Notes: a model not told the origin generated them from the sequence alone. A stretch of DNA of 27,098 nucleotides from a virus (IMGVR_UViG_3300028829_004180:1-27098), one strand, 5' to 3'; counted from the stretch's first letter, positions 1,072 to 16,427 are shown. Made by a program: numbers and translations.

Positions 1072-2535
1072 ATGAAAATCGTTTTGGACCCTGTGTATAC
1101 GACAAGCCACATGAGTACGTGCAGTAGTTGGTTTCCGACCAAATTAGCAGGATTAAAGTATCTCGAAATGGATGAAAACAATTATATATACTGTCTAGTT
1201 CCAGATGAGGAATATTGTAATGATGGTATCAAAGCAGATGACCTTGTAGACCACCCGAGATGGAAAAACATAAAATATCCATATAGCAAAGATAGATATA
1301 GCAATTTCTTTTTTCCGGGAAGTCAATATGAGTATCTCCTAGCTAATTATGGAGAACTTTGGGACTATGACATACTTTTTACTACGAGAAGTTTCTGTTT
1401 ACCTCTCTTGAGAGCTTCTACAAGAGAAGAAAGAGGTTTGAGATGGTATACGCTTCTAGATTTACTTCCGGGTATGAACTTTAAGACAACAGTTTCTATG
1501 TGGTGGGAAGGGGAGGCTTTTCTCTCCTTAGCATACGCAATGGTAGATAGGGTATTCATGACACCAGAGTGGGAAAGAAAAGAGGCTCTTAAAACAATGC
1601 GTAAATATATCTCTCCTAACTTACTTATGAAAGCACAAGACAAGATGAGAATTACTTATTACCACCCAGATTTAGATTATGAAAGGGTATATAAAAAGAA
1701 GATACGGCAGGACGAAGTATTAAATGTAATATACGCAGGACGACGCAATAACACACAAAAAAAATGGGATGATATCGTCAAACTATTTCGCGACTATTGG
1801 CTCATGAGAAAAGAGAAAATAAATTTTTTCGTCGCTTCGGCATCTAAGTCTCAGGCAGACGCTGTTGAACCTATGTGGGATATGAAATCACTTCCAAGAG
1901 ATGAGTTCTACACTAAGCTAGAAAATCAAGATGTAACAATTTCCATGAGTATAGAAGAGGAAATACCGTTAGCATTGGTCGAGGCAATTAGCTACGGATG
2001 TATTCCAGTTGTTAGAAAGGCTCAATGGTCAGTCGGCATGTTCGGAGAGGACTACTTTGGGCTTGTAAAGAACGAGGCAGAGGCATTTGCTATGTTAGAT
2101 TTGATTGCAGAGGATAAACAGAAGTATTTTGATATGTTTTTGGAGTGGTATGAGAAGTTTAAAGAGGAATATTTAATTCCATACGGGGATTTCAAACAAA
2201 ATCTCTTAGACGACGTTAACGCGTTAGATTCCCGCCGAATGCAGTATTTCGAGAAAAAATTTCCGGAAAATGAGGAAACAAAAGGTTGGATGGAGATGTG
2301 TTCGATAATAAACGACAATCTTGAAGTCGGAGAGGAGTTCAATCTCATGGAAAAGATGGCTCAACTAGGAAAAGAAAATAAACTTCGATATGGACCGCCG
2401 GGAGAATTTATTGATATACTAAATACGCCACTGTGGAGACGACCACGTTGGGCATTAGCAAGGTATGGAATGCTATATAAATTTAACTGCGTGGACAATG
2501 GTACAAATCCGGGAGACTTGAAAAAAATTGGATAG
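1072..2535 (+). CDS. GT-B-fold glycosyltransferase (GT4-like)
   Basis: This encodes 487 residues. The C-terminal half shows a GT4-type layout: a strand and sugar-nucleotide loop start (LNVIYAGRRNNTQKKWDD, about 216-233), then SMSIEEEIPLALVEAISYGC (about 291-310). The latter matches the donor-binding 'E-x7-E' signature followed by G-x-P-V-V-like GCIPVV. The N-terminal half would form the acceptor Rossmann domain. The expected reaction is transfer of a sugar from a nucleotide sugar to an unknown acceptor: phage DNA, a virion protein or a host surface polymer. No signal peptide or membrane segment is visible. It sits between a possible TerS and the TerL ATPase gene, an unusual place for a glycosyltransferase. 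It overlaps the TTG alternative start of the next gene, so the two are probably co-transcribed. The family call is firm; the substrate is unknown. Confidence 0.8.
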   Translation: MKIVLDPVYTTSHMSTCSSWFPTKLAGLKYLEMDENNYIYCLVPDEEYCNDGIKADDLVDHPRWKNIKYPYSKDRYSNFFFPGSQYEYLLANYGELWDYDILFTTRSFCLPLLRASTREERGLRWYTLLDLLPGMNFKTTVSMWWEGEAFLSLAYAMVDRVFMTPEWERKEALKTMRKYISPNLLMKAQDKMRITYYHPDLDYERVYKKKIRQDEVLNVIYAGRRNNTQKKWDDIVKLFRDYWLMRKEKINFFVASASKSQADAVEPMWDMKSLPRDEFYTKLENQDVTISMSIEEEIPLALVEAISYGCIPVVRKAQWSVGMFGEDYFGLVKNEAEAFAMLDLIAEDKQKYFDMFLEWYEKFKEEYLIPYGDFKQNLLDDVNALDSRRMQYFEKKFPENEETKGWMEMCSIINDNLEVGEEFNLMEKMAQLGKENKLRYGPPGEFIDILNTPLWRRPRWALARYGMLYKFNCVDNGTNPGDLKKIG

Positions 2536-2545
2536 AAGATTAGAC

Positions 2546-3292
2546 ATGTCACAAGGACAGGCACTTGAACTTGCGTGTAGTTATCACGCTGGAATATTCG
2601 CAGAGAGAAAGCTTGGATTTAAAAATGAACCGTTTCATTGGGAATGGTATGAACTTGAAATGGAGTCAAACAGACTCTGTGTCGTAGCACCACGTGAACA
2701 TGCAAAGTCAGAAGTCTTTTCAGTAATCAGTACAGCTCATCATGTAATCTACCGACCAAGCTCATGGCAATTTATTTTTTCGGCAACAATCGAGCAAAGT
2801 AAATTACTACTGGAGAGAGCCGTATCTATGATTCAACAAACAAATCCAATGTTGATAGAAGACGCAAAGAAGTGGTCAACGTCAGATATAATTTTCGGAA
2901 ACTATTCGAGAGTAACTGCTGCTTCAGTAGGTAGAAGTATCCGAGGAGTTCATCCAGATAGAATAGTCGGGGATGACGTTTTGACAGACGCTAGTACAGC
3001 GACACAATTACAACGAGAAAAAATTGAACGTTGGTGGTTTGGAACAATCGCTCCACTTGCGCATCCGGGCGCGACAAGACCACTCGGCTGGGGCTCAGTA
3101 AAACCACAAGGTAATGGGCAGACGTTATATCACCCAGCTACTAAAATAGTTCTTGTAGGCACTCCGTTTCATCAGAATGATTTACTTATGAAAATGAAAA
3201 CGAACAGTGCTTATACTTTTAGAAGGTACAGCGCAGAGTACGATATAAAAAATATGCTAGATGGCTCTTGGGCTATAGAAGGAAACGTTTAA
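2546..3292 (+). CDS. terL: terminase large subunit, N-terminal ATPase half (split TerL)
   Basis: This encodes 248 residues carrying the packaging-motor ATPase core. A Walker A-like loop APREHAKSE lies at about 48-56, a Walker B DRIVGDDVLTD at about 137-147, and the coupling motif LVGTPFHQNDLL near 210-221. These are the standard order and spacing of an HK97/phage-type TerL. The protein stops about 35 residues after the coupling motif, where an intact TerL continues into the RNase H-like nuclease. The nuclease half is a separate gene about 9 kb downstream (12314-13246). The two together would be about 560 residues, a normal TerL length. The start is ATG 2546; a TTG at 2528 would add six residues and overlap the preceding gene. 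A split motor would need the two polypeptides to assemble in trans. Confidence 0.85.
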   Translation: MSQGQALELACSYHAGIFAERKLGFKNEPFHWEWYELEMESNRLCVVAPREHAKSEVFSVISTAHHVIYRPSSWQFIFSATIEQSKLLLERAVSMIQQTNPMLIEDAKKWSTSDIIFGNYSRVTAASVGRSIRGVHPDRIVGDDVLTDASTATQLQREKIERWWFGTIAPLAHPGATRPLGWGSVKPQGNGQTLYHPATKIVLVGTPFHQNDLLMKMKTNSAYTFRRYSAEYDIKNMLDGSWAIEGNV

Positions 3293-3294
3293 CA

Positions 3295-3540
3295 ATGAGA
3301 CAGACAACACGAAACAAGTTAGTACAGCTAGTACAACAAGAGGTCATGGACGACCCAGAAATGGACAAACCTATCCTTACTGGCATGGTTATGGTCGCAG
3401 AGTTTGTCGACAGCAATGGGGAGAGAATGTTATTCAAACTTTCCTCCAACCGAGACGCAGAAGCTTTACCACAATGGACAACGCTGGGCTTTCTACATTC
3501 AGCTATGGGAATGGTCGCAGAACCACCAGACGACTTTTAA
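3295..3540 (+). CDS. small actinophage-type protein of unknown function
   Basis: This encodes 81 residues. It has the pattern ILTGMVMVAEFVDSNGERML followed by PQWTTLGFLHSA. I know this pattern (T-G-W-V-L-V-A-E-W-x-D-x-x-G-x-R-W-L, then W-x-x-x-G-L) from short hypothetical proteins in many actinobacteriophages, and no function is established for it that I know of. ATG 3295 lies just after the TerL-N stop, with AGGAAA upstream; an earlier in-frame ATG at 3268 sits inside TerL-N and lacks a ribosome site. It is probably in the same transcript as the glycosyltransferase and TerL-N. It marks the first gene of the block that separates the TerL halves. Confidence 0.7.
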   Translation: MRQTTRNKLVQLVQQEVMDDPEMDKPILTGMVMVAEFVDSNGERMLFKLSSNRDAEALPQWTTLGFLHSAMGMVAEPPDDF

Positions 3541-3545
3541 AAGAG

Positions 3546-3585
3546 CGTACTGTAGCAACGCTACATACGTATAAAAAAATTTTTT
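3546..3585 (+). terminator. possible terminator: hairpin followed by A7-T6 tract
   Basis: TGTAGC (3551-3556) and GCTACA (3560-3565) pair perfectly around an AAC loop. The stem extends by CGTA/TACG if one C is bulged. A T6 run at 3580-3585 comes ten bases after the stem, separated by an A-rich stretch, so it is not a classical terminator. It lies in the gap after the first gene group and before the next promoter, which suits an end of transcription. Confidence 0.4.
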
Positions 3586-3631
3586 CAGCTTACGCTTATA
3601 TAAGGAGTAGGGGGGCAAGTCGAAGGTTTCC

Positions 3632-3660
3632 CAGCAAAACTCTTGACACGTTACTATACT
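3632..3660 (+). promoter_or_regulatory. promoter with shared spacer element AACTCTTGAC
   Basis: The -10 is TATACT (3655-3660). The 17-bp spacer begins with AACTCTTGAC, identical to the spacers of the promoters at 4739 and 5357. The -35 position reads CAGCAA, a poor match, so this promoter may depend on a factor bound at the spacer element. The ATG at 3668 comes seven bases after the -10, so the mRNA is expected to be leaderless. Confidence 0.6.
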
Positions 3661-3667
3661 AAAAAGT

Positions 3668-3925
3668 ATGCAGGAACGACATTGTGTAATATGCGAGAAG
3701 GCGTTTGGTGAAACGTGGAATCATTTGTGGGACCATTTTGACCAAGAAGGAGAACTTTGTTATCAGAAGATTGAGGAAAACTTGATGAACGATAGCAATA
3801 TGTATCGAAACGTTATGACCTCTCCCGACAGCTATGTGGAATATTTTGTTTTAGAGTATTCAAATCCACAAATTATCGCAGGTTACAAGACACAAGAACT
3901 GAAAACAAGCCAAAAACTATCTTAG
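3668..3925 (+). CDS. C2H2 zinc-finger small protein
   Basis: This encodes 85 residues. The N-terminus holds C6-x2-C9-x9-H19-x3-H23 (CVICEKAFGETWNHLWDHF), a C2H2 zinc finger of the kind that binds DNA or a protein partner. The remainder is acidic and polar with no recognised domain. It begins seven bases after a TATACT box and lacks a Shine-Dalgarno, so it is probably translated from a leaderless mRNA. As the first gene behind the shared-motif promoters it may be expressed early. The exact role is unknown. Confidence 0.75.
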   Translation: MQERHCVICEKAFGETWNHLWDHFDQEGELCYQKIEENLMNDSNMYRNVMTSPDSYVEYFVLEYSNPQIIAGYKTQELKTSQKLS

Positions 3926-3952
3926 GAGCAATTTAACGTAGTTTTAAGGCAT

Positions 3953-3975
3953 AGTTGTGAGCAGACCTTACAACT
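3953..3975 (+). other. hairpin in the gap before the regulator gene
   Basis: AGTTGTGAG (3953-3961) pairs with CTTACAACT (3967-3975) around a 5-base loop, nine base pairs with one G-U. No T-run follows, so it is not a standard terminator. It lies about 60 bases upstream of the regulator promoter and could be an RNA structure ending the 3668 transcript or an operator. No function can be assigned. Confidence 0.35.
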
Positions 3976-4033
3976 TACCCCTACACGTTAAAAATGCAGA
4001 AAAATACCCCCAAAAGAGTCAAAAACGAACTAT

Positions 4034-4062
4034 TTGACAAGTACTGACAACTGTTCTATTGT
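4034..4062 (+). promoter_or_regulatory. promoter of the tandem-HTH regulator gene
   Basis: A perfect -35 TTGACA (4034-4039), a 17-bp spacer and TATTGT (4057-4062) form a good primary-sigma promoter. The spacer contains ACTGAC, a shifted version of the CTTGAC element shared by the other promoters; the two TGACA copies here are 10 bases apart. Direct control of its own gene by the regulator is a reasonable guess. Confidence 0.7.
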
Positions 4063-4085
4063 TAAATAAAAAAATTAGGAGGAAA

Positions 4086-4742
4086 ATGAACAATCATCAA
4101 AAGAGTAAGTCGGACAGATTAAGAGTATTTCAACCAAAAGATTTTAAAAAAATCGTTAAAGCGTTTGATTACAACGTTACAGAAGTAGCAAAACAAATCG
4201 GAGTACAACCACCAACTTTAAACAAAGTTGTGAACGGTGATACTAAAAGACCGGCTATAACAACTGTTGATGGTTTTACGCAATATGTTATGGAAAGTTA
4301 TTATACACGCCAAGTAAAGCCAGATATTCCAGAAAGAATCACAATGATATCGCCTTGGCACTATCAAAAAGAAATGGATAAGCGAGGATTAACAATTCCA
4401 GAACTAGCACCGAAAATAAAAAAAATCTCAAGAGCAACGTTAACTGCATACGTAAGAAGTAATTGGGGAAATACAGGACCAACGTATCTTTTTTCTTTAT
4501 GGATATCACAAGCTATTCAGAAATTTCCAATTTTATCGGAAGAAGAGATAATAGCTAAAGCAGGTTTTACTGTTAGGATGTCTGCTGATTACTATGACGA
4601 TTACAATGACCCAAAATTATCGGATAAGCCGAAATGGTCTTTTCACGAAGCACAACAAGAATGGATTAGAAGAGACCAAAAAAAGCTAGCAAAACTGCCT
4701 AGAGTGGGACATTTGACAACGCATCAAAAAACCAAGGATTGA
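4086..4742 (+). CDS. putative transcription regulator with two helix-turn-helix domains
   Basis: This encodes 218 residues. The first HTH is at about 20-65 (NVTEVAKQIGVQPPTLNKVV), with the alternating helix pattern of XRE/Cro repressors. The second is at about 92-130 (MDKRGLTIPELAPKIKKISR then ATLTAYV), also XRE-like. The C-terminus is charged. A protein with two tandem HTH units suits binding to direct repeats, and the promoters here carry TTGACA-like repeats spaced 10-11 bp. It has its own promoter and a perfect AGGAGG at 4077-4082. ATG 4086 is preferred over an upstream TTG at 4059 because of this ribosome site. It may be the repressor or switch protein for the small-gene block. No protease or dimerisation domain is recognised. 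Confidence 0.75.
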   Translation: MNNHQKSKSDRLRVFQPKDFKKIVKAFDYNVTEVAKQIGVQPPTLNKVVNGDTKRPAITTVDGFTQYVMESYYTRQVKPDIPERITMISPWHYQKEMDKRGLTIPELAPKIKKISRATLTAYVRSNWGNTGPTYLFSLWISQAIQKFPILSEEEIIAKAGFTVRMSADYYDDYNDPKLSDKPKWSFHEAQQEWIRRDQKKLAKLPRVGHLTTHQKTKD

Positions 4743-4767
4743 CAAACTCTTGACAGTCGACTAAGAT
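4739..4767 (+). promoter_or_regulatory. promoter with shared spacer element AACTCTTGAC
   Basis: TTGACA (4739-4744), a 17-bp spacer starting AACTCTTGAC, then TAAGAT (4762-4767). Two TTGACA copies are therefore spaced exactly 11 bp (4739 and 4750), one helical turn. It overlaps the stop of the regulator gene and reads into 4827-5195 with a leader of about 50 bases. Confidence 0.6.
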
Positions 4768-4826
4768 AAGAGTATCGGCTTTTTGAAAATTTAAAAACAT
4801 CATCGTAATAACGAAAGGGGAATCTA

Positions 4827-5195
4827 TTGAAAAAGAACAATAGTGAAACCGACCGTTTGCTTGAGCATAACCATAATTGGAATGGTTCATATCGAAAATC
4901 TTACTACGTAAGTGGTTGGGATTTTAGCATGGCTAAAAGATATGAAGTCAAGAAATATTGCAAAGAATGTAATCTTTCTTGGAACAATTTCAAATATCTT
5001 GGTAGAGCTAACGCAGTTGAAGAATATGAGAAGGAAAGTGCTCACTATCAGAAAAATCTTGATAGTGGTTTCAGAGTTCGACATTCTAATAATATGGTTA
5101 AAACTTATAACCGTTCTGCTGCTCGAGCAAGGCTAATTACCGATTGCAATATCGTTAAAAGGCAAGGTTGGTATAAAAAACCAATTTCTGACTAA
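4827..5195 (+). CDS. unknown protein with possible H/C zinc site
   Basis: This encodes 122 residues. It starts at TTG 4827 behind a strong AAAGGGG at 4813-4819. The first third contains HNHNW and the next part has CKEC, so HxH plus CxxC might bind one zinc ion. The C-terminal half is rich in Arg, Tyr and Asn (KTYNRSAARARLI) and basic, as in nucleic-acid-binding proteins. No family is recognised. The stop codon lies inside a 7-bp hairpin at 5187-5207. Confidence 0.65.
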   Translation: MKKNNSETDRLLEHNHNWNGSYRKSYYVSGWDFSMAKRYEVKKYCKECNLSWNNFKYLGRANAVEEYEKESAHYQKNLDSGFRVRHSNNMVKTYNRSAARARLITDCNIVKRQGWYKKPISD

Positions 5196-5351
5196 GATGA
5201 AGTCAGATGTTTAATTGATTATCCACGCAAGCAAAGGCACTGATATCAAAAAACAAATACTTAAGTAATTAATTCTAGTCAGCGAGCTAGAAATTACTAA
5301 GAAAAAGCTCATAGGATTGGACAGGCAACTGCTCAACTTATGGGCTTTTTT
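5187..5351 (+). ncRNA. candidate structured RNA (three hairpins ending in a terminator)
   Basis: The gap of 220 bases between 5195 and 5419 has no convincing ORF but has strong pairing. TCTGACT/AGTCAGA (5187-5193 with 5201-5207) is a perfect 7-bp stem. AGTAAT plus TTCTAG (5264-5269, 5273-5278) pairs with CTAGAA plus ATTACT (5287-5298), a 12-bp stem with a TAA bulge. The third is the terminator stem at 5302-5350. Such a row of stems ending in T6 is what a small phage RNA or a structured 3' end would look like. No promoter clearly belongs to it, so it may be a processed 3' end of the 4827 transcript. No known RNA family is recognised. Confidence 0.35.
5302..5351 (+). terminator. rho-independent terminator
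   Basis: AAAAAGCTCATA (5302-5313) pairs with TATGGGCTTTTT (5339-5350), 12 bp with one G-U, and ends in a run of six T. The loop is 25 bases. It lies just upstream of the promoter at 5357, so it insulates the following genes. Confidence 0.7.
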
Positions 5352-5356
5352 AATGC

Positions 5357-5385
5357 TGGACAAACTCTTGACTGCCAGTTATATT
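5357..5385 (+). promoter_or_regulatory. promoter with shared spacer element AACTCTTGAC
   Basis: TGGACA (5357-5362), 17-bp spacer beginning AACTCTTGAC, then TATATT (5380-5385). The -35 hexamer and the spacer TTGAC copy are 11 bp apart. The predicted start at about 5392 gives a short leader with AAAGGA before ATG 5419. Confidence 0.65.
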
Positions 5386-5418
5386 ATGAGAAAGAATTTA
5401 TTCAAGAAAGGAATAGAT

Positions 5419-5541
5419 ATGAAAAAAATACAATACAAAGATAATTACATTATCGACTGGGAAAACGAAGAAGTTTCCTTTGATGACGGAAATACGTGGG
5501 AAAAGATTGGAGCGAAGAAACATGAATCGGCAACAACGTAG
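5419..5541 (+). CDS. very small acidic protein of unknown function
   Basis: This encodes 40 residues with alternating charged and aromatic positions (YKDNYIIDWENEEVSFDDGN), probably a small beta structure. ATG 5419 follows AAAGGA at 5407-5412. An in-frame ATG at 5386 touches the -10 box and is unlikely to be used. The next ORF starts inside its 3' end, so the two are probably coupled. No family is recognised. Confidence 0.55.
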   Translation: MKKIQYKDNYIIDWENEEVSFDDGNTWEKIGAKKHESATT

Positions 5542-5647
5542 AAAACTAAAATCAAAAAAACGGGGGGCTACGCAAATGAACCACCCAACATTCGTTAAAA
5601 AATTGAAAGCAGAGCAAGATGATTCAAAAACAATTCAACCAAAGTAA
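5522..5647 (+). CDS. very small basic protein (MNRQQRRKLKSKK-type)
   Basis: This encodes 41 residues, beginning MNRQQRRKLKSKKRG. Short phage proteins starting MNRKQRR and similar basic runs are frequent and are thought to bind nucleic acid, though without known function. GGAG lies about ten bases before ATG 5522. It overlaps both neighbours by about 20-30 bases. Its existence is supported by the typical N-terminus and compact placement. Confidence 0.5.
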   Translation: MNRQQRRKLKSKKRGATQMNHPTFVKKLKAEQDDSKTIQPK

Positions 5648-5885
5648 AAGTAAGCCAGAATATACGATTCTTAGATATTCAAAAATCGGTGGTACAATGA
5701 AACCGACCATACTCGGAGCAGGAGTAAGAGGGAAATACGCCAAAGACATTTATGAACGTGAAACTTCAAAACTTGTCAAAGACGGATGGAAATTAGTTTC
5801 TTTCACAAAATCTCCGACAAGCAGAGAACGTATGTTTAGAAGTAACCAAGCAAACTTGATTTTAAAATTGATTGAGGTAGTATGA
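5619..5885 (+). CDS. small basic protein of unknown function
   Basis: This encodes 88 residues if ATG 5619 is used, or 62 from ATG 5697; neither has a strong ribosome site. The segment LVKDGWKLVSFTKSPTSRER looks like the 'G-W-x-L-V-S' strand of small DUF4177-like domains, but this is a weak resemblance. The stop TGA overlaps the next ATG. It belongs to the operon of the promoter at 5357. Confidence 0.5.
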   Translation: MIQKQFNQSKSKPEYTILRYSKIGGTMKPTILGAGVRGKYAKDIYERETSKLVKDGWKLVSFTKSPTSRERMFRSNQANLILKLIEVV

Positions 5886-6124
5886 AAAAAAATAAAGAAA
5901 TAGCAAAAGCAAAATTGATTGAAAGGAATATCGATGAAAGAAGAGAAGCTATCAATATTCTTGAAAAACAGATTGCAAGTATTAACGATTTACTATTCAC
6001 AAACAAAATTTTTGGTATGGATAAAAACGAAATCTCGAAGACAATGAATACTGTTTTCGAAATCAAAAATAACATTAACCAAGAATGGTCTGCGATTGTT
6101 AAATTGTTGGGAGAGGAACAATAA
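5882..6124 (+). CDS. small helical, probably coiled-coil protein
   Basis: This encodes 80 residues, almost entirely helical and charged (KAKLIERNIDERREAINILE), with heptad-like spacing of Ile and Leu. It suggests a coiled coil that dimerises or docks to another protein. It overlaps the preceding stop by four bases (ATGA). Family and role are unknown. Its C-terminus GEEQ is encoded by GGAGAGGAACAA, which also serves as ribosome site for the next gene. Confidence 0.6.
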   Translation: MKKNKEIAKAKLIERNIDERREAINILEKQIASINDLLFTNKIFGMDKNEISKTMNTVFEIKNNINQEWSAIVKLLGEEQ

Positions 6125-6127
6125 AAA

Positions 6128-6508
6128 ATGGGAAAGCACCCAAGATTAAATATTGACGAGGAGATTATCTTTGACACAAAAGCTAAGCAGGTACAAAAGA
6201 ACACAACACACAAGATGAAAACCAAAAGTTTGACACCAAAATTAATTTGGAGTTTAGCTAATGCAATTGATGCGATTATGGATACAGAAGAAAGCATGTA
6301 TCTATCGCAAGACTTGCATAACACCTTGCAGGACTTTCTACCTAATTCAATAGGAATGACTGAATTGTTTGGATTACTGAATAAAGGTAACTCTGAAGAA
6401 GCAGCAAAACGTTTAGCTTACAAAGAAAAGCACGGTAAAAATCCACCGCAAAGTTGGTATAAACAACAAAGAAAGTATTTCTTACCAAGAATAATTGAAG
6501 AGCTGTAA
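6128..6508 (+). CDS. unknown protein, 126 residues
   Basis: The protein has a basic N-terminal third (KQVQKNTTHKMKTKSLTP), a helical middle, and a C-terminus ending WYKQQRKYFLPRIIEEL. Charged helices suggest a DNA- or protein-binding role. No family is recognised. GGGAGAGGAACAATAAAAA precedes the ATG. It ends just before the promoter at 6512. Confidence 0.6.
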   Translation: MGKHPRLNIDEEIIFDTKAKQVQKNTTHKMKTKSLTPKLIWSLANAIDAIMDTEESMYLSQDLHNTLQDFLPNSIGMTELFGLLNKGNSEEAAKRLAYKEKHGKNPPQSWYKQQRKYFLPRIIEEL

Positions 6509-6511
6509 AGC

Positions 6512-6540
6512 TGGACAAACTATTGACGGAATGCCATAGT
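6512..6540 (+). promoter_or_regulatory. promoter with shared spacer element AACTATTGAC
   Basis: TGGACA (6512-6517), a 17-bp spacer starting AACTATTGAC (one base from the other copies), then CATAGT (6535-6540). The ATG at 6547 comes six bases after the -10, so the product mRNA would be leaderless. The -35 and inner TTGAC are 11 bp apart again. Confidence 0.6.
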
Positions 6541-6546
6541 AAAGTT

Positions 6547-6720
6547 ATGGAAAAATTATATAGCAAAGACTACACTATAAAACCTAAATGTGATGTCTGT
6601 GAAGGCACCATGCTAAGCATGATTGAATCAAATGGCAAAGGCGTAACAACCGTATTGCTTATTTGTTATCCTTGTGGAATATCACAATATACAGGCTCGA
6701 CAACGAAAAGGGGGTTATGA
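6547..6720 (+). CDS. zinc-ribbon small protein
   Basis: This encodes 57 residues. CDVC (about 15-18) and CYPC near 40 give a CxxC...CxxC zinc ribbon (KPKCDVCEGTMLSM then LLICYPCGIS). Such small ribbons usually act as nucleic-acid or protein adaptors. ATG 6547 is used because the -10 box ends at 6540; the upstream TTG at 6523 lies inside the promoter. The stop overlaps the next ATG by the ATGA arrangement. Confidence 0.65.
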   Translation: MEKLYSKDYTIKPKCDVCEGTMLSMIESNGKGVTTVLLICYPCGISQYTGSTTKRGL

Positions 6721-7250
6721 TGATATTCGACGAAGAATATGATGATGAACAACAAAAAATGAATGATGATTTCAAAGAAGAAATCAAAAACGGACTAGAC
6801 CAATTTGGACCCGAAGCAATGACGATATTTATTGAGGGAACTATTGGTACAATCGTAAAACATTTAGTACTAAATTATGATGTTTACTGGGATGAGGAAG
6901 AAAAACTAGAATTTGTATTTTTTCACATTGTTCGAATGAGTAGCGTATTTCAATTACTGTGTGATGAAGCAGATGAACGAGGGGATATAGATGAACATTT
7001 TTATCCAAAACCCGAAGACGTATACGAATTTATAAAAAAATCAGAAAGTAAGTCTTATCATAACGAAGCACTTGATATGTTCGAAAGAACGTTTCAAATG
7101 TGGCACGCTAAAAAAGGATTAGACTTTACAAGAGCAATACAAAAGCACCCAAGTCAATTTGATAATGAAAAAGAAACAGAAGTGAACAATCAATTCGCTG
7201 ACATTGTTTTCAATAGTTATTTCGAAGGACTATTAGGGGAGGAAGAGTAA
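6717..7250 (+). CDS. acidic protein of unknown function
   Basis: This encodes 177 residues with strongly acidic ends (MMIFDEEYDDEQQKMNDDFK; ends EGLLGEEE). It looks mostly helical, without a recognised domain. AAGGGGG just before ATG 6717 sets the start; ATG 6720 is an equal alternative. The acidity could mimic DNA or bind a basic partner, but that is speculative. The next gene overlaps its stop (TAATG). Confidence 0.65.
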   Translation: MMIFDEEYDDEQQKMNDDFKEEIKNGLDQFGPEAMTIFIEGTIGTIVKHLVLNYDVYWDEEEKLEFVFFHIVRMSSVFQLLCDEADERGDIDEHFYPKPEDVYEFIKKSESKSYHNEALDMFERTFQMWHAKKGLDFTRAIQKHPSQFDNEKETEVNNQFADIVFNSYFEGLLGEEE

Positions 7251-7315
7251 TGAATAAGTACACATTTTATTTTATTGTATTAGCAATTGCTATAAAATTA
7301 GCAGGTAGCTTCTAA
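7250..7315 (+). CDS. 21-residue hydrophobic micropeptide
   Basis: ATG 7250 overlaps the previous stop and its own TAA overlaps the next ATG at 7315, so the ORF sits exactly in the operon with no slack. GGGGAGGAAGAG is its ribosome site. Residues 5-19 are almost all hydrophobic (TFYFIVLAIAIKLAG), long enough to span a membrane. A single-pass membrane peptide could disturb or mark the host membrane. At this length the call rests on the exact coupling of both ends. Confidence 0.55.
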   Translation: MNKYTFYFIVLAIAIKLAGSF

Positions 7316-7533
7316 TGATAGAAGTAAAGACTAAAGAATGTATTCATTGCAGACAGACAGGTACAGTTATGGTAGATGAAGAAAAGTACAAAGAATTTAC
7401 CGAAACGCCTAGACATCTAAGACGTTTGATACAAGATATATTTCCCGAACACAGCAGAGGACAACGTGAACAACTTTTAAACGGAGTTCATCCCGAATGT
7501 TTTGAAGATATGTTTGGAGGAGAAGGACAATGA
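7315..7533 (+). CDS. small zinc-knuckle protein of a common actinophage type
   Basis: This encodes 72 residues. It starts with CIHC at 9-12 and ends with HPECFEDMFGGEG; the middle has FPEHSRGQREQLLNGVHPEC. I know this layout (CxxC, then F-P-x-x-x-x-x-x-R-E-Q-L-x-x-G-x-H-x-x-C-W) from many actinobacteriophage hypothetical proteins. The two Cys of the N-terminus and His/Cys near the end could hold a zinc ion. Function is unknown. It overlaps the previous stop (TAATG). Confidence 0.75.
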   Translation: MIEVKTKECIHCRQTGTVMVDEEKYKEFTETPRHLRRLIQDIFPEHSRGQREQLLNGVHPECFEDMFGGEGQ

Positions 7534-7814
7534 GAGACTTAACTAAAAAACAAATAAAATTAATTGATGAATGGTTAGAGGAATACAACGAAAAAACATA
7601 TTCTCTTTCCCAAATAGAATTTTCAGTTAATACTAGAACAAGAACGTATGCAAAACAATCTGTAGATATGGATAAGTTTCCATTAGATTTGTTCAAAAGA
7701 TTAGAAGAAATCAACGATACTGAAATCTTGTGGAATACAATAGATTTATATATACAAGAACAACAATCAAAACCGATTGTAGTAATAGATAGGGACGGAT
7801 TCAGTAAAGCATGA
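7530..7814 (+). CDS. unknown protein, 94 residues
   Basis: The first half is helical and charged (LTKKQIKLIDEWLEEYNEKT) and there is a Glu/Asp-rich region later. No family is recognised. GGAGGAGAAGG precedes ATG 7530, which overlaps the former stop. It belongs to the long operon beginning near 6512. Confidence 0.55.
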   Translation: MRDLTKKQIKLIDEWLEEYNEKTYSLSQIEFSVNTRTRTYAKQSVDMDKFPLDLFKRLEEINDTEILWNTIDLYIQEQQSKPIVVIDRDGFSKA

Positions 7815-8194
7815 GGTCTAGAAGAACAGGTTATTCGCCGGGACACTCTCGAGAAGACACCGATGCGACGTATCCAAGATTCGGAACTGCTCGATATGTC
7901 GGACGAAACACCGGTGGATTAGGAGATACAAGTTTCGTAATTGAAGACCTGTTAAGTTTTAAATCAAAAGATGAGAACTATTGGAAAGAAGTAGAAAAAA
8001 CTAAAAAATTAAATATTGAACAAGCAATGACCAAACATCAAATCATCAAAGATAATTTTTTTGGTAAGTTTGGGGAAACATTGAAAGAAAAAGATTTACA
8101 AAATGTTCTCGACCATTTTTTCACAGAATATAAAAGAACAATGAAAACACAAGAAATAGAAAATTTCTTTTACGGCATAGAGGAGGAAGAATAA
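7811..8194 (+). CDS. unknown protein, 127 residues
   Basis: The N-terminus is basic and Arg/Gly/Ser-rich (MRSRRTGYSPGHSRE), followed by acidic helices that end EEEE. The first 40 residues look disordered and may bind nucleic acid; the rest may be a helical bundle. No family is recognised. It overlaps both neighbours by four or one bases (ATGA, TAATG). Confidence 0.55.
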   Translation: MRSRRTGYSPGHSREDTDATYPRFGTARYVGRNTGGLGDTSFVIEDLLSFKSKDENYWKEVEKTKKLNIEQAMTKHQIIKDNFFGKFGETLKEKDLQNVLDHFFTEYKRTMKTQEIENFFYGIEEEE

Positions 8195-8310
8195 TGGAAT
8201 GTAGATTATGTGAGGAAGATTATCCATTAATAAGTATGACGAATGGTATATGTTCTATGTGTATGCAATTACATAGCAAAGCACAACTAATAGAAATGTT
8301 GGTGGAATAA
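8194..8310 (+). CDS. 38-residue zinc-knuckle peptide
   Basis: This short ORF contains CRLC near the start and CSMC near residue 20 (CRLCEEDY, then GICSMC), a CxxC...CxxC pair that would hold one zinc ion. Both its start and stop overlap the neighbours in the TAATG manner, and AGGAGGAAGA is its ribosome site. Several such knuckle proteins occur in this block. Confidence 0.6.
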   Translation: MECRLCEEDYPLISMTNGICSMCMQLHSKAQLIEMLVE

Positions 8311-8852
8311 TGCCTAACTGGTGTAGAACTACTGTTAGATTTACAGGAGAACAAGAAAATCTTGATTTATTAGAAAAAGATATAAATGTTATAACAACAG
8401 AAAATCGTTTTAGCATAGCTCAATCAATAAATCCACAACCCGACGAACTAAGTAACGTAGTAGTTGGCTATAAAGACGGAGCTAAGTATTGGTGGAAAGA
8501 TACAGAAGAACCTTTAGCTCACGAAGACATAGATATGTTGTTTCAAACTTACGGATATTATGATTGGTATCAATGGAGATTAGCAAATTGGGGCAGCAAA
8601 TCGGGAGACCTTGATACTGAAAAACTCAGAATTGACAAAAATCATATAGTTTTCAAATATGAAAGTGCTTGGAATGACCTTAGAGAACTTCATAAAATAA
8701 TTGCAGAAGAATACAAATTGTCATCTGTTGTTTCATGGTGGGAAGAAAGTGGTTATCACGGCTCTTATAAAATTCTAAATGGAAAAGTATTTGATGAAAA
8801 CATAGGTTATGATTATTATGATGGTACCGACGATATAGGAGAAGAAGAATGA
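8310..8852 (+). CDS. DUF1281/Api92-like phage protein with ferredoxin-like fold
   Basis: This encodes 180 residues and begins MPNWCRTTVRFTGEQENLD, the N-terminal signature of the DUF1281/Api92 phage family (M-P-N-W-C-x-N). The rest has the family's Trp/Tyr-rich middle (YGYYDWYQWRLANWGSKSGD) and the W-W-E-E-S-G-Y region of a ferredoxin-like alpha/beta fold. Members occur in many phages and plasmids with no settled function. The start ATG is coupled to the preceding stop (TAATG). Confidence 0.75.
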   Translation: MPNWCRTTVRFTGEQENLDLLEKDINVITTENRFSIAQSINPQPDELSNVVVGYKDGAKYWWKDTEEPLAHEDIDMLFQTYGYYDWYQWRLANWGSKSGDLDTEKLRIDKNHIVFKYESAWNDLRELHKIIAEEYKLSSVVSWWEESGYHGSYKILNGKVFDENIGYDYYDGTDDIGEEE

Positions 8853-9043
8853 CTACTAAAAAAATTAAGAAAATGTTAGCTAAAAATCTTGCTAAATTAC
8901 AAAAAGCCGAAGAAATTAGCAAAAAACTTATAGACGAAAGAAATAAGATAATTAAAAAACTTGCTAGTGATGGTATGGCAGTAAAAGAAATAGCTGAATT
9001 AGTCGGAATGACTAGACAGATGGTCTACAAAATAATTAACTAA
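8849..9043 (+). CDS. small coiled-coil HTH protein
   Basis: This encodes 64 residues. The N-terminal 40 are Lys-rich and helical (coiled-coil-like), and the end (SDGMAVKEIAELVGMTRQMV) is a helix-turn-helix of the resolvase/Hin type. This resembles small regulators that dimerise through the coiled coil and bind DNA by the HTH. It could modulate the small-gene operon. The start overlaps the previous stop (ATGA). Confidence 0.65.
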   Translation: MTTKKIKKMLAKNLAKLQKAEEISKKLIDERNKIIKKLASDGMAVKEIAELVGMTRQMVYKIIN

Positions 9044-9216
9044 TGTGTCTTAAATACGATTACGCAATCGAATTTCAATTAGTAAATCAATTTAATACTG
9101 AGGATATGCTTGTTGAAATAAGAGACAACATTCAAGAAATGTTATTGCAAGCTGACATAACAGAACTTGATGAATATCAAGATGAAGAATGCAAATGTAA
9201 CTTGGAGGAACAATAG
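9043..9216 (+). CDS. small acidic protein
   Basis: This encodes 57 residues: ATG 9043 follows directly on the previous stop (TAATG) and the stop TAG overlaps the ATA start of the next gene. The sequence has a hydrophobic first half and an acidic, Cys-containing end (DEYQDEECKCNLEEQ). No family is recognised. The gene is supported mainly by its exact fit in the operon. Confidence 0.5.
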   Translation: MCLKYDYAIEFQLVNQFNTEDMLVEIRDNIQEMLLQADITELDEYQDEECKCNLEEQ

Positions 9217-9572
9217 CTTATCTAAAAACTCACGACTGGGCTATTAATGGATTAAAGCATATTGTACTGAAAGAAGCTAATGGAAATAAGGATACTGCGA
9301 AAATAGCTTGGGACCTAGCATGGAGAAGACTCCAATGCAACCAATGGGGAAGTGCAGATGAATGGTCAGCAGAAAGAATCGATTCACTTGTAACAACTGC
9401 TAAATCTTTATTACCGAAAACCTTTACTTCGGGAAATCTAATAGATAATATAAGAGAAGTATTTGGGGAAGTAGAAGATATTTCCCACAAATTAGGAACT
9501 GAATACCCTGCAACAATTGTAACGATAAGGAGGACAAGTGGGAATATACAGAATACAGGACGACAAAGCTAA
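9213..9572 (+). CDS. unknown protein with probable ATA start codon
   Basis: The frame from 9201 to 9572 has no stop for about 123 codons and encodes a Trp-rich protein (THDWAINGLKHIVLKEANGN, AWDLAWRRLQCNQWGSADEW), which is very unlikely by chance in an AT-rich region. It contains no ATG, GTG or TTG. GGAGG (9204-9208) lies four bases upstream of ATA 9213, and the ATAG overlap with the former stop is like the ATGA junctions elsewhere. I therefore place the start at ATA 9213, giving 119 residues. A base change from ATG in this individual, or a sequence error, is the main alternative. No family is recognised. Confidence 0.5.
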   Translation: MAYLKTHDWAINGLKHIVLKEANGNKDTAKIAWDLAWRRLQCNQWGSADEWSAERIDSLVTTAKSLLPKTFTSGNLIDNIREVFGEVEDISHKLGTEYPATIVTIRRTSGNIQNTGRQS

Positions 9573-9747
9573 ATGTATAACTTTAACAGTTGACTATGAA
9601 TTTAGTTTTGGAACAAGCGAAGAAGAAGCTATAGAACAAATAGACCAAATGGTAAAGATGACGGACAATGATATAGATTTTACTTTTATATCACACACGC
9701 CAGTTTTTTATACAACAAATCCGTGGGAAGAACACGAGGAAGAATAA
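9538..9747 (+). CDS. small acidic protein, GTG start
   Basis: This encodes 69 residues. GTG 9538 has a strong AGGAGG upstream (in AAGGAGGACAAGTG). The sequence begins as a beta strand (YRIQDDKAKCITLTVDYEFS) with a helix rich in Glu after it, and ends EEHEEE, where the next gene's ribosome site is encoded. No family is recognised. It overlaps the end of the preceding gene by 35 bases in another frame. Confidence 0.6.
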   Translation: MGIYRIQDDKAKCITLTVDYEFSFGTSEEEAIEQIDQMVKMTDNDIDFTFISHTPVFYTTNPWEEHEEE

Positions 9748-9992
9748 TGACAGACCATATAATTAATGAATTGAAAAGACTCATAAAAGAATACTCTCTA
9801 ACTGATGATGATGTTAAAATCTTATCAGCAAAGCTAGAGTTATTTTTCCATGATTATTTATCTGAATATCATTCAGACCTTGAATCAGACAAGATTGTAA
9901 CCGATGAAAAAGCACTAGAAACTATTCTTGGTTTCGAAATGACAAAACAACTAGATGAATACGAAGATATTAAAAAAGAAGGTACAGAATGA
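9747..9992 (+). CDS. small acidic helical protein
   Basis: This encodes 81 residues, mostly helical and acidic (TDDDVKILSAKLELFFHDYL). ATG 9747 overlaps the previous stop (TAATG) and has GAGGAAGA as ribosome site, so an upstream in-frame start at 9723 is not needed. The next gene overlaps its end. No family is recognised. Confidence 0.55.
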   Translation: MTDHIINELKRLIKEYSLTDDDVKILSAKLELFFHDYLSEYHSDLESDKIVTDEKALETILGFEMTKQLDEYEDIKKEGTE

Positions 9993-10171
9993 ATGAAATA
10001 CTTTCTTTTATCCATTGCAGACTTTGTTTAGAAGAATTACCGCCAGAAACTTCTCCAAGAGAATGGACAAAGATAGAAGCAGGTAGGACAGAACACGGAT
10101 TACAAGTTTGGTGTATTAGACATGAAAAAAATATAGTTCACATAGATATGAAGAATGCGTTATGGCACTAA
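9989..10171 (+). CDS. zinc-knuckle protein of a widespread phage type
   Basis: This encodes 60 residues. Near the start is CRLCLEELPPETSPREW, then GLQVWCIRHEKNIVHID. CxxC plus C-x2-H can hold one zinc ion. I recognise the pattern (CRLC...SPREW...GLQVWC-x-RH-x-x-N-x-x-H-x-D) from short hypothetical proteins of many phages. Function is unknown. The start overlaps the former stop. Confidence 0.7.
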   Translation: MNEILSFIHCRLCLEELPPETSPREWTKIEAGRTEHGLQVWCIRHEKNIVHIDMKNALWH

Positions 10172-10317
10172 CAGAAAAAGATTATTTGAAAGCTATAAAA
10201 TCTTATAGAAAACAAATCGAAATAGCACACGATATTATGGACACCGAACAGCAAGTTCAATTTTTTGCAGTCCTAAATGACTGGAATACATTTCAAAGAG
10301 CAACGGAGGAAGAATGA
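10162..10317 (+). CDS. 51-residue protein of unknown function
   Basis: ATG 10162 lies inside the end of the preceding gene and the frame stays open to TGA 10317, overlapping the next ATG at 10314. It is mostly helical (KDYLKAIKSYRKQIEIAHDI) and ends TEEE, which carries the GGAGGAAG for the next gene. No family is recognised. Confidence 0.5.
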   Translation: MALTEKDYLKAIKSYRKQIEIAHDIMDTEQQVQFFAVLNDWNTFQRATEEE

Positions 10318-10484
10318 AGAATATAAGATTAGAAAAAATTGTTTTATATACAGCAATTGATAAAAATAATTACGATACAGCATTAGACACAGTTGTTAAT
10401 CTTTTAGAAGAACAATTTGATTTAAAACTGCTGGACTGGGAAAACCCAGTCGAATATACTATTACTAAAAGAAAGGCACAGTAA
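10314..10484 (+). CDS. 56-residue protein of unknown function
   Basis: The start overlaps the previous stop (ATGA) and the stop overlaps the next ATG (TAATG). The sequence is mixed helix and strand (LYTAIDKNNYDTALDTVVNL). A perfect 7-bp DNA hairpin (10434-10451) lies in its coding region. No family is recognised. Confidence 0.5.
   Translation: MKNIRLEKIVLYTAIDKNNYDTALDTVVNLLEEQFDLKLLDWENPVEYTITKRKAQ
10434..10451. repeat. perfect inverted repeat GACTGGG-AAAA-CCCAGTC
   Basis: Seven paired bases around an AAAA tetraloop, inside a small coding region. It is one of few GC-rich stems in this AT-rich block. It could be an mRNA hairpin or a protein site, or chance. Confidence 0.4.
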
Positions 10485-11017
10485 TGAATACTTTCGTACC
10501 ATACCCAAATCTTGACAAGATTGCATTATGCTTAGATAACTCAAGATTAAATAAACAAATACTAGAAACAGTACAAATTATCAAAGTACTCGAAAAAGAA
10601 TACCCAAGTAACGCTTGGCAAAACCACCCAGCAGTCGTTCAATGGACAGGACATGAATACAAGTTATCAGTTTATGGATTGACTATGGAAAGAGAAGCTA
10701 ACAAGCGTGGTATCAAAGCTAATCAAAAAGATTGGTTGTATGAAAAGATGCAACAATTTATAAAAGAAGGTAGAAATGTAGATTTTCCTAACTGGTGGGG
10801 ATTTGAACCAATGCACGCAAGTCATCGTTCTAACTTAACTAGAAAAGATGCAGTTCATTACGGACAATTCTTTGATGATGAGGCAGGAAAACCTTATATT
10901 TGGATTCGTGATAATAAACTTCAGTTTGGTAAATACCGTTCTGATATTCAATTAAAAGAAGCAGAAAACATGAAACATGCTGAAATTTGGAAAGCTATAA
11001 TAGATAAGAAAGTATGA
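10484..11017 (+). CDS. pyrimidine-dimer DNA glycosylase-like protein
   Basis: This encodes 177 residues. It begins MNTFVPYPNLDKIALCLDNS then RLNKQILETVQI, followed by NHPAVVQWTGHEYKLSVYG and ASHRSNLTRKDAVHYGQFFD. These match the order of motifs (P-Y-P-x-x-x-x-x-x-x-L-D-x-x-R-L-x-K-Q, N-H-P-A-V-x-x-W, H-x-S-H-R-S-x-L-x-R-K-D) of phage proteins annotated as pyrimidine dimer DNA glycosylase-like, which would cleave the glycosidic bond at UV-damaged bases. Whether this version is active is unknown. It is coupled to both neighbours (TAATG, ATGA). Confidence 0.7.
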   Translation: MNTFVPYPNLDKIALCLDNSRLNKQILETVQIIKVLEKEYPSNAWQNHPAVVQWTGHEYKLSVYGLTMEREANKRGIKANQKDWLYEKMQQFIKEGRNVDFPNWWGFEPMHASHRSNLTRKDAVHYGQFFDDEAGKPYIWIRDNKLQFGKYRSDIQLKEAENMKHAEIWKAIIDKKV

Positions 11018-11907
11018 CACCTAGAGAAGAACTTAATGCTAAAAGAAAAGAATTGAAAAAAGAATTAATTCGTATGAATAATATTTGTGTTGATTACTAT
11101 CTCGAAAACATAAAAGATAAACAACCAACAGCTAACGAAGAACTTATTTTTGAACTTCTTAGAGATAACTTAATGGAATATAAACAAAAGTATTACGGAT
11201 GGGATGGTGATGTTAGACCAAACGTTGAACCAGTTGAAAAAATTGTCGAAAATAAAAAACCTATTAAAACAACACGTAGAAATAAAAACCTTGCAATATT
11301 GATTAAAAATGAAATGCTCGCAACAGGTAAAAAAACAAAAATATTTGTTCATAAAACAGGAAGGTATATAGGAAAAGTTAAAACAACAAATGAAATCAGA
11401 GATGAAGTAACTAATTGTTACAATTTGATTGCAAATGATAAAAAAACTAAACCTACTAGAAAAGAATTAATTAACCGTTTAGCTCCAGTTGATAGTTTTT
11501 CAAAACGTATAGCAACAATCGTTGTAAATGAAATGATGTTACAAGATAAAAACCTAAAATTTATTTCAGAAACTAAACGTAGAAGAATGGAACAACATTA
11601 CAAACAAGAAAATCTTAATTACAGTAAATATGTAGAAATATTGTCTTTCATTTCAAATTACCAAATGGAACAATTGATGGAAGGTAGCAAAAGAATCAAA
11701 CCAAAAATAGAAGAAATATTTGTTCATTCATCTTTAGAATCTGTAGCAGAAGTAAATAATCACATTCATAAATTGATGGAAATGAATATGATAGAGAATC
11801 AAAAAACAATGTATCACTTACCGTACGCAGATAGTTATAACGCTTTTAAAAAGCTAGAACGTAAAATAAACACAGAAATCAATAAAAAGAACAAACCCAG
11901 CATATAA
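11014..11907 (+). CDS. basic protein of unknown function
   Basis: This encodes 297 residues, Lys/Arg-rich throughout (ENKKPIKTTRRNKNLAILIK, SETKRRRMEQHYKQE). Helices with charged faces suggest DNA binding; an HTH-like segment may lie in the middle (TRKELINRLAPVDSFSKRIA). No family is recognised. It is the last gene of the long operon of small genes and is followed by 74 bases without a gene, holding the promoter for RusA. Confidence 0.6.
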   Translation: MTPREELNAKRKELKKELIRMNNICVDYYLENIKDKQPTANEELIFELLRDNLMEYKQKYYGWDGDVRPNVEPVEKIVENKKPIKTTRRNKNLAILIKNEMLATGKKTKIFVHKTGRYIGKVKTTNEIRDEVTNCYNLIANDKKTKPTRKELINRLAPVDSFSKRIATIVVNEMMLQDKNLKFISETKRRRMEQHYKQENLNYSKYVEILSFISNYQMEQLMEGSKRIKPKIEEIFVHSSLESVAEVNNHIHKLMEMNMIENQKTMYHLPYADSYNAFKKLERKINTEINKKNKPSI

Positions 11908-11942
11908 AAGTAAGCTTTTAAGAAGATTTAGAAAGTACTTTG

Positions 11943-11974
11943 TTGCAAACCTTAACTCTTTACCCTAGTATAAT
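11943..11974 (+). promoter_or_regulatory. promoter of the RusA/TerL-C/portal group
   Basis: TATAAT (11969-11974) ends seven bases before ATG 11982, so the mRNA should be leaderless. TTGCAA (11943-11948) stands 17 bases before an overlapping TAGTAT. The spacer contains AACTCTTTAC, one base off the AACTCTTGAC element of the other promoters. It is the likely restart of late-gene transcription. Confidence 0.65.
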
Positions 11975-11981
11975 GATTGAA

Positions 11982-12371
11982 ATGGCTATATATAAAGTAG
12001 AAATACCGTTCGTGACTCCGTCTAAAAATACATATGATGGTTGGCAACACGTGTGGCAGTCGGGTTTAAAAAAGAAGTGGAAAGAGCAGCTATATGTAGA
12101 ACTTGCTGCATTACCAGAAGCAAAGATGGTTGAGGCTAAGGCTATATTAATATTTGATGTCAATAGGAGAAGAGACTGGCAAAACTATGTTCATCCTCTT
12201 TGGCATTTTGTAGCAGATGCATTGCAAGATGTAGGTATAATAGAAGATGACACGCCAGAATACTTTACAACCAAAAAAAATGGGGGTATTGAATTTATGG
12301 TAGAGAAGGATGAAACAAAATCGAAGAAACAGATAAGAAGAACCGTCTTGGTTTTAGACCTGACGACGTAA
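11982..12371 (+). CDS. rusA: RusA-like Holliday junction resolvase
   Basis: This encodes 129 residues. The motifs of the RusA family are seen in order: MAIYKVEIPFVTPSKN at the start, then a helix/strand pair, and DWQNYVHPLWHFVADALQDV followed by IIEDD, which contains the conserved Asp pair used to bind metal. RusA cuts four-way junctions as a dimer and, in phages, can trim branched packaging substrates. I prefer ATG 11982 over an upstream TTG because the -10 box ends at 11974. Its stop is inside the open frame of the TerL nuclease half. Confidence 0.8.
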   Translation: MAIYKVEIPFVTPSKNTYDGWQHVWQSGLKKKWKEQLYVELAALPEAKMVEAKAILIFDVNRRRDWQNYVHPLWHFVADALQDVGIIEDDTPEYFTTKKNGGIEFMVEKDETKSKKQIRRTVLVLDLTT

Positions 12372-13246
12372 AACCTTTAGATTACGGTGGTGGTAAAGCA
12401 TCACTTTGGGATGGACGTTGGTCTTTTATAGCTAAGCAAGAATGTATAGATATCGTAAATGGTGTAGAACCAGAATTACGTGAATCCAAAAGATTTGAAT
12501 TACCTTGTGAAAAATGTGAAGCATCTCTTTCATGTTTAACTGCAAAAGAAAAAGAAGTTGGCTCAATAATGTTCGATAGAGAATATAAAACTAAGCCAAG
12601 GTCATCAAGTTCATCATTATTTCCTTATACCGTGATGGAACCAAATCTAGACGAAAGTAGTTACTTAGTAGAAACATTTAATAAAGACTATCAAGGTGGA
12701 CAAAACATGTGGGTAGTTAGTGGATGGGATTTAGCTTGGTCAGAAAAAGCAGGTGGAGATTATCTTGCAAAAGTAACTGCATCTTTTGATATGGAAACTG
12801 GTATAAAAACAATCTTAGATATTGATAGATGGCAAAAACTATCCTTTGAACAGCAATGTAAATTAATAGAACACCACAATGAAAGATACAATGAGGACCT
12901 AGTTGTTATCGAATCTGACTCTGCACAAATGATTTGGGCTCAATATCTTGAACAAAAAACTACTCTACCTATAATGAGGCATAGAGCTGGTGGTAAGAAA
13001 GACTTACAGTCAGGAGTGCCGGGATTACTAATGGATTTAGAAAGAAAGGTCTGGAGAATCCCATATAATAAAAAGTCGCGTAATATGGATAATGTGAAAG
13101 CTTTTTTAACAGAAGCAGAAGCTTTCGGATGGAAGAACGATAAACTCGAAGGAGTTGGAGAACACGACGACCTAGTCATGGCTTGGTGGCATTGTAACTT
13201 CGGCTTAGAGAGATACAAAAAAATAGCATCTTGGGGAGCCTATTAA
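12314..13246 (+). CDS. terL: terminase large subunit, C-terminal nuclease half (split TerL)
   Basis: The frame is open from 12314 and encodes up to 310 residues. The part from ATG 12569 (225 residues) has the RNase H-like nuclease: GWDLA (catalytic Asp 54), VVIESDSAQ (Glu 115/Asp 117) and GEHDDLVMAWW (Asp 200/201). Upstream, ASLWDGRWSF matches the ATPase-nuclease linker motif (L-W-x-x-R-W) and KEVGSIMFDREYKTKP the helix leading into the nuclease, so coding must extend above 12569. No ATG, GTG, TTG or CTG exists between 12314 and 12569. The start is thus unsolved: a rare codon (ATC 12320 has AAGGA nine bases upstream) or a -1 frameshift out of RusA. An insert with three Cys (PCEKCEASLSC) is unusual. 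Confidence 0.8.
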   Translation, partial: NKIEETDKKNRLGFRPDDVKPLDYGGGKASLWDGRWSFIAKQECIDIVNGVEPELRESKRFELPCEKCEASLSCLTAKEKEVGSIMFDREYKTKPRSSSSSLFPYTVMEPNLDESSYLVETFNKDYQGGQNMWVVSGWDLAWSEKAGGDYLAKVTASFDMETGIKTILDIDRWQKLSFEQQCKLIEHHNERYNEDLVVIESDSAQMIWAQYLEQKTTLPIMRHRAGGKKDLQSGVPGLLMDLERKVWRIPYNKKSRNMDNVKAFLTEAEAFGWKNDKLEGVGEHDDLVMAWWHCNFGLERYKKIASWGAY

Positions 13247-16123: not shown

Positions 16124-16135
16124 AAAAAAATACTG

Positions 16136-16141
16136 TATAAT
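16136..16141 (+). promoter_or_regulatory. -10 box TATAAT before the zinc-finger gene
   Basis: TATAAT stands 14 bases before ATG 16156, giving an mRNA leader of only about eight bases. A possible -35 (TTGGGA, 16111-16116) is 19 bases upstream, a loose match. Confidence 0.45.
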
Positions 16142-16155
16142 AAAACTTAGAAACG

Positions 16156-16347
16156 ATGAGTAATTATATAAATGCATATAATCTAGGTAAACTTCCAAAA
16201 AGAAGTAGAACAATAGAAGAAGAACGTCAATGTAAATCTGATGGATGTAGCACTATTATTTCTAAATATAACAAAACAGAACATTGTAATAATCACAGAC
16301 CACTCAAATATCCAAGAGTCAGAGGAAAACCCTCAAAGTCAGAATAA
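16156..16347 (+). CDS. small zinc-finger protein, actinophage type
   Basis: This encodes 63 residues. The core CKSDGCSTIISKYNKTEHCN followed by NHRP has C-x4-C and C-x2-H, which would hold a zinc ion; I know the pattern (C-x3/4-G-C-x-T-x-x-S-x-Y-N-x-x-x-x-C-x-x-H) from short proteins in actinobacteriophages, of unknown function. It lies between portal and protease genes with its own -10 box. A basic tail (RVRGKPSKSE) could touch nucleic acid. Confidence 0.7.
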   Translation: MSNYINAYNLGKLPKRSRTIEEERQCKSDGCSTIISKYNKTEHCNNHRPLKYPRVRGKPSKSE

Positions 16348-16396
16348 TAAAAAAGTCAATACTTTTCCAACTTAGTTTCAATTTTTTAGTAAATTG

Positions 16397-16421
16397 GATA
16401 GTGAACACTTTATTTTAAGGA
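16397..16421 (+). promoter_or_regulatory. possible weak promoter and ribosome site of the protease gene
   Basis: GATAGT at 16397-16402 and an AT-rich tract lie in the 80-base gap; no good -35 is found. AAGGA at 16417-16421 is a clear ribosome site for ATG 16428, so this gene has a leader, unlike the leaderless ones. Confidence 0.3.
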
Positions 16422-16427
16422 TAGGTA

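Follow-up and report, generated by a model that had tools for sequence, protein, structure and literature searches.

Two separate genes encode the domains of one large terminase

We have analyzed a stretch of viral DNA of 27,098 bp (IMGVR_UViG_3300028829_004180, a complete linear record of the IMG/VR database), the whole of which is called the window here. It contains two genes on the plus strand that together make one large terminase subunit (TerL). The first, TerL-N, encodes a stand-alone ATPase domain and the second, TerL-C, a stand-alone nuclease domain, and the stop-to-start distance between them is 9,022 bp.

The open reading frame (ORF) of TerL-N (2546–3292) encodes a complete TerL ATPase domain of 248 amino acids. 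The Walker A-like sequence APREHAKSE (2687–2713), the Walker B sequence RIVGDD (2960–2977) and the coupling motif GTPFH (3158–3172) are all kept in the alignment of relatives. The protein matches phrog_28155 (‘terminase large subunit’) with E = 2e-69, and AlphaFold models it as a self-contained domain with a pLDDT of 92.4, for which the best matches in the PDB are the ATPase domains of T4 gp17, at the top, and of P74-26 TerL. TerL-N is a P-loop ATPase domain, with Walker A and B and coupling motifs.

The open frame of TerL-C (12314–13246, 310 codons) contains a complete TerL nuclease domain. The catalytic acids D139, E200 and D285/D286 are invariant in the alignment of relatives, and are encoded at 12728–12730, 12911–12913 and within the HDD codons at 13163–13171. 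The match to phrog_31692 (‘terminase large subunit’) has E = 7.7e-94. In the AlphaFold model (pLDDT 76.5) the nuclease core is modelled well and the first 40 residues weakly, and the best matches in the PDB are the terminase nuclease domains of G20c, P74-26, P22 and RB49. TerL-C is an RNase H-fold nuclease possessing its catalytic acids. On the profile of single-chain proteins phrog_38, TerL-N maps to positions 287–475 and TerL-C to 502–696. The two proteins are therefore complementary halves of a TerL, and the two domains are not found on one polypeptide in the window but in separate genes. Thus both assignments of a first-pass annotation made from the sequence alone, an ATPase half at 2546–3292 and a nuclease half at 12314–13246 with their respective motifs, are borne out, and no second TerL, such as a complete terL elsewhere, was found within the 27,098-bp window.

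Other phages with the same split

How general is the division of TerL into two genes? We sought relatives by tblastn against cultured phages, and by alignment-based pattern scans of IMG/VR for contigs with one or both halves. The tblastn search found the same split in the Arthrobacter phages Kitkat, KellEzio, BeatusComedenti and DanielleIgnace, where the genes are annotated ‘terminase large subunit, ATPase domain’ and ‘nuclease domain’. The Kitkat proteins can be aligned with phrog_28155 and phrog_31692 over the full length. For this family, therefore, a TerL divided over two genes is already known. The maps of two of the four phages were read, and in both a RusA-like resolvase and small genes separate the halves. 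Both halves are also carried by the cultured isolate Actinomycetospora termitidis, with one tiny gene between them, and this was the one split form retrieved when genome contigs were searched with a profile from a wide alignment (a narrow alignment gave 0 matches). The isolate's halves, at 8869–10876 of locus L091, probably belong to a prophage with a split motor.

The scans of IMG/VR added further contigs that have one half or both. Each half was thus found in related phages, divided at the same point, with a gap that ranges from ~0.2 kb to >20 kb. The distance is ~0.2 kb in Actinomycetospora, 0.3 kb in contig G006 and 0.7–3 kb in most, compared with 9.0 kb in the window, which has the longest gap among contigs with the order N half, gap, C half. 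In the 66-kb contig G018 the halves (22700–23440, L061, and 64194–65009, L063) are ~40 kb apart, or ~24 kb if the contig is circularly permuted, so that the exact distance is uncertain. In two further contigs (G012 and G016) a C half is present, and the 8–10 kb upstream of it yielded no N half. With these three contigs in view, a long gap is not unique to the window.

The N terminus of the nuclease half

The TerL-C frame contains no ATG, GTG or TTG between 12314 and 12569, and no such codon was found upstream of the conserved region in the window or in the related loci L002, L003 and L004. All four share an ATC, at 12320 in the window, that lies nine bases past the Shine–Dalgarno-like sequence AGAAGGA (12304–12310). 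Initiation there would yield an N terminus resembling those of the ATG-started C halves of relatives. On this comparison ATC 12320 is the probable start codon, giving a protein of ~308 amino acids (12320–13246). The start overlaps the gene for a RusA-like Holliday junction resolvase (11973–12371, plus strand), and TerL-C lies in the −1 frame relative to it. A stretch of ~35 bases within 12304–12371 is identical in L004, a more distant relative.

The lack of a common start codon, together with the −1 frame relative to the overlapping resolvase gene, could be taken to mean that the halves are joined into one chain, by trans-splicing of RNA, by a split intein or by frameshifting. Yet the C halves of Kitkat and DanielleIgnace are free genes that start with ATG, and a frameshift would fuse RusA rather than TerL-N onto TerL-C. 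Nor is there room for an intein, for the N half ends soon after its domain and the C half opens with an LGF-type N terminus, and no Rfam intron family was detected in the gap or junction region. We regard such joining as most improbable. The individual routes were also considered in their own right. An intron-split gene was rejected, as Rfam gave no group I or group II intron at the junctions and the gap is full of genes. A split intein was rejected on inspection of the alignment, where at most ~20 residues of the N half follow the domain and no extension is of intein size. A programmed −1 shift from the frame of the RusA-like gene to that of TerL-C was considered because the two overlap, but visual inspection revealed no conserved slippery heptamer.

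The two sides of the break have a consistent form among the split proteins. The N halves stop soon after the coupling motif and a strand of sequence FRRYxAE. The C halves begin with a variable tail, often with LGF or LGR in it, followed by the pattern LWxxRWPxIA...CID...LPCxxCx5-6CLxAKxKE. In TerL-C this extension, comprising LWxxRW and four cysteines, occupies 12404–12562 (plus strand), with the cysteines at positions 44, 65, 68 and 74 of the window frame (codons at 12443, 12506, 12515 and 12533). The four cysteines are invariant in 18 aligned split C halves, and are present also in further split C halves and in that of Actinomycetospora. No cysteine-bearing extension was seen in the aligned single-chain relatives, where the two domain matches lie about a dozen residues apart in most cases. 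We infer from this pattern that the extension is a docking or stabilizing module for the split C half; perhaps it is metal-bound.

A probable single origin for the split forms

Trees were constructed for the N domain (26 rows) and for the C domain (32 rows, with the extension removed), both rooted on single-chain forms and sampled by pattern scan. In each, a branch with 100/100 support sets all the split forms apart, requiring one change of state, and the window falls inside this clade, grouping with contigs G004, G005 and G008 in both trees. The distance matrices of the N and C halves from 13 genomes are correlated with a Mantel r of 0.83, as high a value being obtained in 0 of 10,000 permutations. 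With one clade and one change of state in both trees, the simplest reading of the phylogeny, short of proof, would be one old split.

The first-pass annotation had proposed that a cassette was inserted into the terL of this phage. The 9 kb do hold a regulator and small genes that differ from those of the more distant relatives, but a recent insertion into an intact terL of the window's own lineage does not agree with the other data. The relatives above ~40% identity found so far are all split at the same place; it is the more distant ones, such as DAC16_232 of Bacteroides phage DAC16, that are single-chain. The C-half extension is not in the single-chain relatives, the gap content varies between split-TerL phages, and the locus has neither an Rfam intron nor long repeats flanking the gap, or anywhere in 2.0–13.5 kb. 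Recent insertion is thus exceedingly unlikely, and the long gap of the window is explained by later gain of genes inside an already split locus.

The values of dN/dS are 0.05–0.32 across pairs of C halves and 0.19 for the one pair of N halves tested. These ratios indicate that both halves are under purifying selection in the tested pairs of relatives; for the C half this extends to comparisons of the window with its near relatives. The result bears on the possibility that the two halves are relics, or serve some other purpose, while a different terminase packages the DNA. Such an enzyme might be encoded outside the window, which is probably a fragment, yet the catalytic motifs are intact, selection acts on both halves in relatives, and the complete annotation of Kitkat lists gp4 and gp11 as its sole terminase genes. 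Searches of seven split-TerL records with PF17289 and PF03354 also gave no other terminase, but both models are too narrow for most of the known split halves and miss them, so that these negatives are weak evidence of absence. On balance we consider a separate packaging terminase very improbable.

Contiguity of the sequence

The main alternative offered at first pass was a chimeric assembly, in which TerL-N and TerL-C, each with its flank, came from two phages. The region 1–7.2 kb is without a near-identical counterpart in IMG/VR, and the third-position GC content of the first ~2.5 kb (0.38–0.44) is above that of most of the remainder. No near-identical TerL-N or gap genes that would bridge 3.3–7.2 kb were found in IMG/VR; this interval is present in the window record only, and its contiguity rests on that contig alone. 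Against this, an independent contig of 92–97% identity spans 7.2–18.8 kb of the window, independent trees put both halves in one subclade, cultured phages and an isolate have the same break point, and the region has no long repeat to invite a misjoin. A join of unrelated phages is therefore unlikely.

The region between the halves

The intervening region (3293–12313, 9.02 kb, plus strand) holds ~20 small genes, in agreement with the first-pass description of ~9 kb of regulator and tiny genes. These include a Cro/C1-type helix-turn-helix (HTH) regulator (4086–4742, plus strand), a Pyr_excise family protein resembling pyrimidine dimer DNA glycosylases (10484–11017, plus strand), and the RusA-like gene. 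The last is common rather than universal, lying between the halves in 10 of the 13 genomes examined that have both, and its placements by model search and by blastp agree.

Several sigma-70-like sites, identified as consensus matches only, occur between TerL-N and 6.6 kb together with a repeated GGACAAACTNTTGAC-type element. The GGACAAACTNTTGAC-type repeats, and further TTGACA boxes whose spacing is sigma-70-like, are found at 4739, 5357 and 6512, and also at 3643 and 4034. They may serve as early promoters, or as operators at which the HTH regulator acts, and the two halves of TerL probably sit in different transcription units.

The flanking genes and the head module

TerL-C is followed directly by an HK97-type head module (13250–19018, plus strand), consisting of a portal (PF04860, 13250–16123), an S78 prohead protease (16428–17738) and a major capsid protein (PF05065, 17744–19018), all on the plus strand. 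The portal begins at 13250, directly after the nuclease half as noted at first pass. It is very long (957 amino acids), matches DUF3721 and has additional sequence at its C-terminal end. The portal region of L004 (3011–6899) is divided into two ORFs, the second of which ends in what by eye looks like a MuF-type domain. Of 15 split-TerL records examined, 10 have a lambda-E-type capsid (PF03864), and PF05065 is found only in the window and a near relative (G003). The distribution of these families suggests an exchange of packaging and head modules.

A small terminase subunit (TerS) had been suggested before TerL-N, but family searches gave no TerS match upstream. The adjoining gene (1072–2535, plus strand) is glycosyltransferase-like, and the ORFs at 45–341 and 341–823 have no family matches.

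A probable packaging motor in two pieces

We conclude that this is a genuine, anciently split large terminase, whose two proteins would rebuild the motor in trans, a reading to which we assign a probability of roughly 0.85. The first-pass annotation was thus correct in that two genes together make one TerL, probably a two-piece motor; its inserted cassette and its upstream TerS are not supported. What the data demonstrate directly is the presence of intact complementary domains in separate genes, a single split clade, congruent histories of the N and C halves, purifying selection on both halves in relatives, and invariant cysteines.

In the mechanism that we envisage, the ATPase (motor) domain comes from one gene and the RNase H-fold nuclease/translocation domain from the other, at a distance of 9 kb. 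Each protein would be synthesized on its own, and the two would come together in trans at the portal vertex, by analogy with T4 as five copies of each. The ATPase half would power translocation and the nuclease half would cut the concatemer. The break lies in the interdomain hinge, and contact would probably be kept by the domain–domain interface with the cysteine-bearing extension. A more specific version, with separate ATPase and nuclease rings that lack a covalent hinge and are held together through the nuclease half, by a four-cysteine module dedicated to docking, is put forward tentatively, at somewhat less than even odds. If it is right, the two genes are free to drift apart (9 kb here, >20 kb elsewhere) and into different transcription units, and a split motor has been combined with two types of head module.

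A number of points weigh on the other side. Splitting T4 gp17 at its linker retained the ATPase and nuclease activities but abolished translocation (PMC3012670), so function in trans is not automatic; a stronger non-covalent interface would be the simplest way round such a loss. A zinc site in the extension is a guess, because the extension is modelled at moderate confidence only. The single-chain relatives were sampled by pattern scan, and a closer single-chain form could exist. Lastly, the window is probably a fragment, which leaves the remainder of the phage genome unseen.

Comparison with known terminases

It has long been asked how ATP hydrolysis in the ATPase domain of TerL is coupled to the DNA through the nuclease domain. 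A clade that naturally lacks the hinge, and that has cultured members, makes it possible to test directly whether the two domains must be linked covalently; as a substitute for the hinge, the conserved four-cysteine extension is a concrete candidate. Annotation is affected as well. Looking for one full-length TerL gene would miss such motors or halve them, and a large distance between the halves does not speak against their function.

A TerL in two genes has precedents in a few cultured phages and is mentioned in passing in the literature. As far as the open-access literature that we searched shows, novelty appears to lie in the clade-wide pattern, in the cysteine extension, in the long gap and in the exchange of the head module.

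The closest known systems are the Kelleziovirus phages of cluster AT (Kitkat, KellEzio and BeatusComedenti) and DanielleIgnace, with the ATPase as gp4 and the nuclease as gp8, gp10 or gp11. The window shares every feature of the Kelleziovirus-type split TerL that was compared: homologous halves (43–48% identity, with the same break point), membership of the clade, the LWxxRW sequence and the same four C-half cysteines, and a RusA-like gene, with small genes, between the halves. The differences lie in the gap (0.9–1.9 kb in these phages, 9.0 kb in the window), in the capsid, which is of the lambda-E type (PF03864) in Kitkat, the phage tested, but of the HK97 type in the window, and in the start of the C half, an ATG in the Kelleziovirus type, where the window has no ATG, GTG or TTG. 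The genomes of Kitkat and KellEzio have ~63% GC.

Single-chain TerL proteins of the phrog_38 type (for example DAC16_232, Mushuvirus, D3112 TerL and loci L014–L031) have related domains with ~22–37% identity, but in the loci examined they are one polypeptide of ~480–680 amino acids without the cysteine extension. In T4 gp17 the same two folds are joined by a hinge in a single chain, and its domains form two rings under the portal (PMC3012670). The ATPase and nuclease domains are also found in two genes in the Arthrobacter phages BillyTP, MidnightRain and BlueShadow of cluster AY (PMC11920828, PMC12820723). However, those genes overlap each other by some tens of bases and are of the phrog_9 type, a different family, and no homology between their products (gp2 and gp3) and the halves in the window was detectable by sequence. 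Given this difference in family and the lack of similarity, the splitting of TerL appears to have happened independently at least twice.

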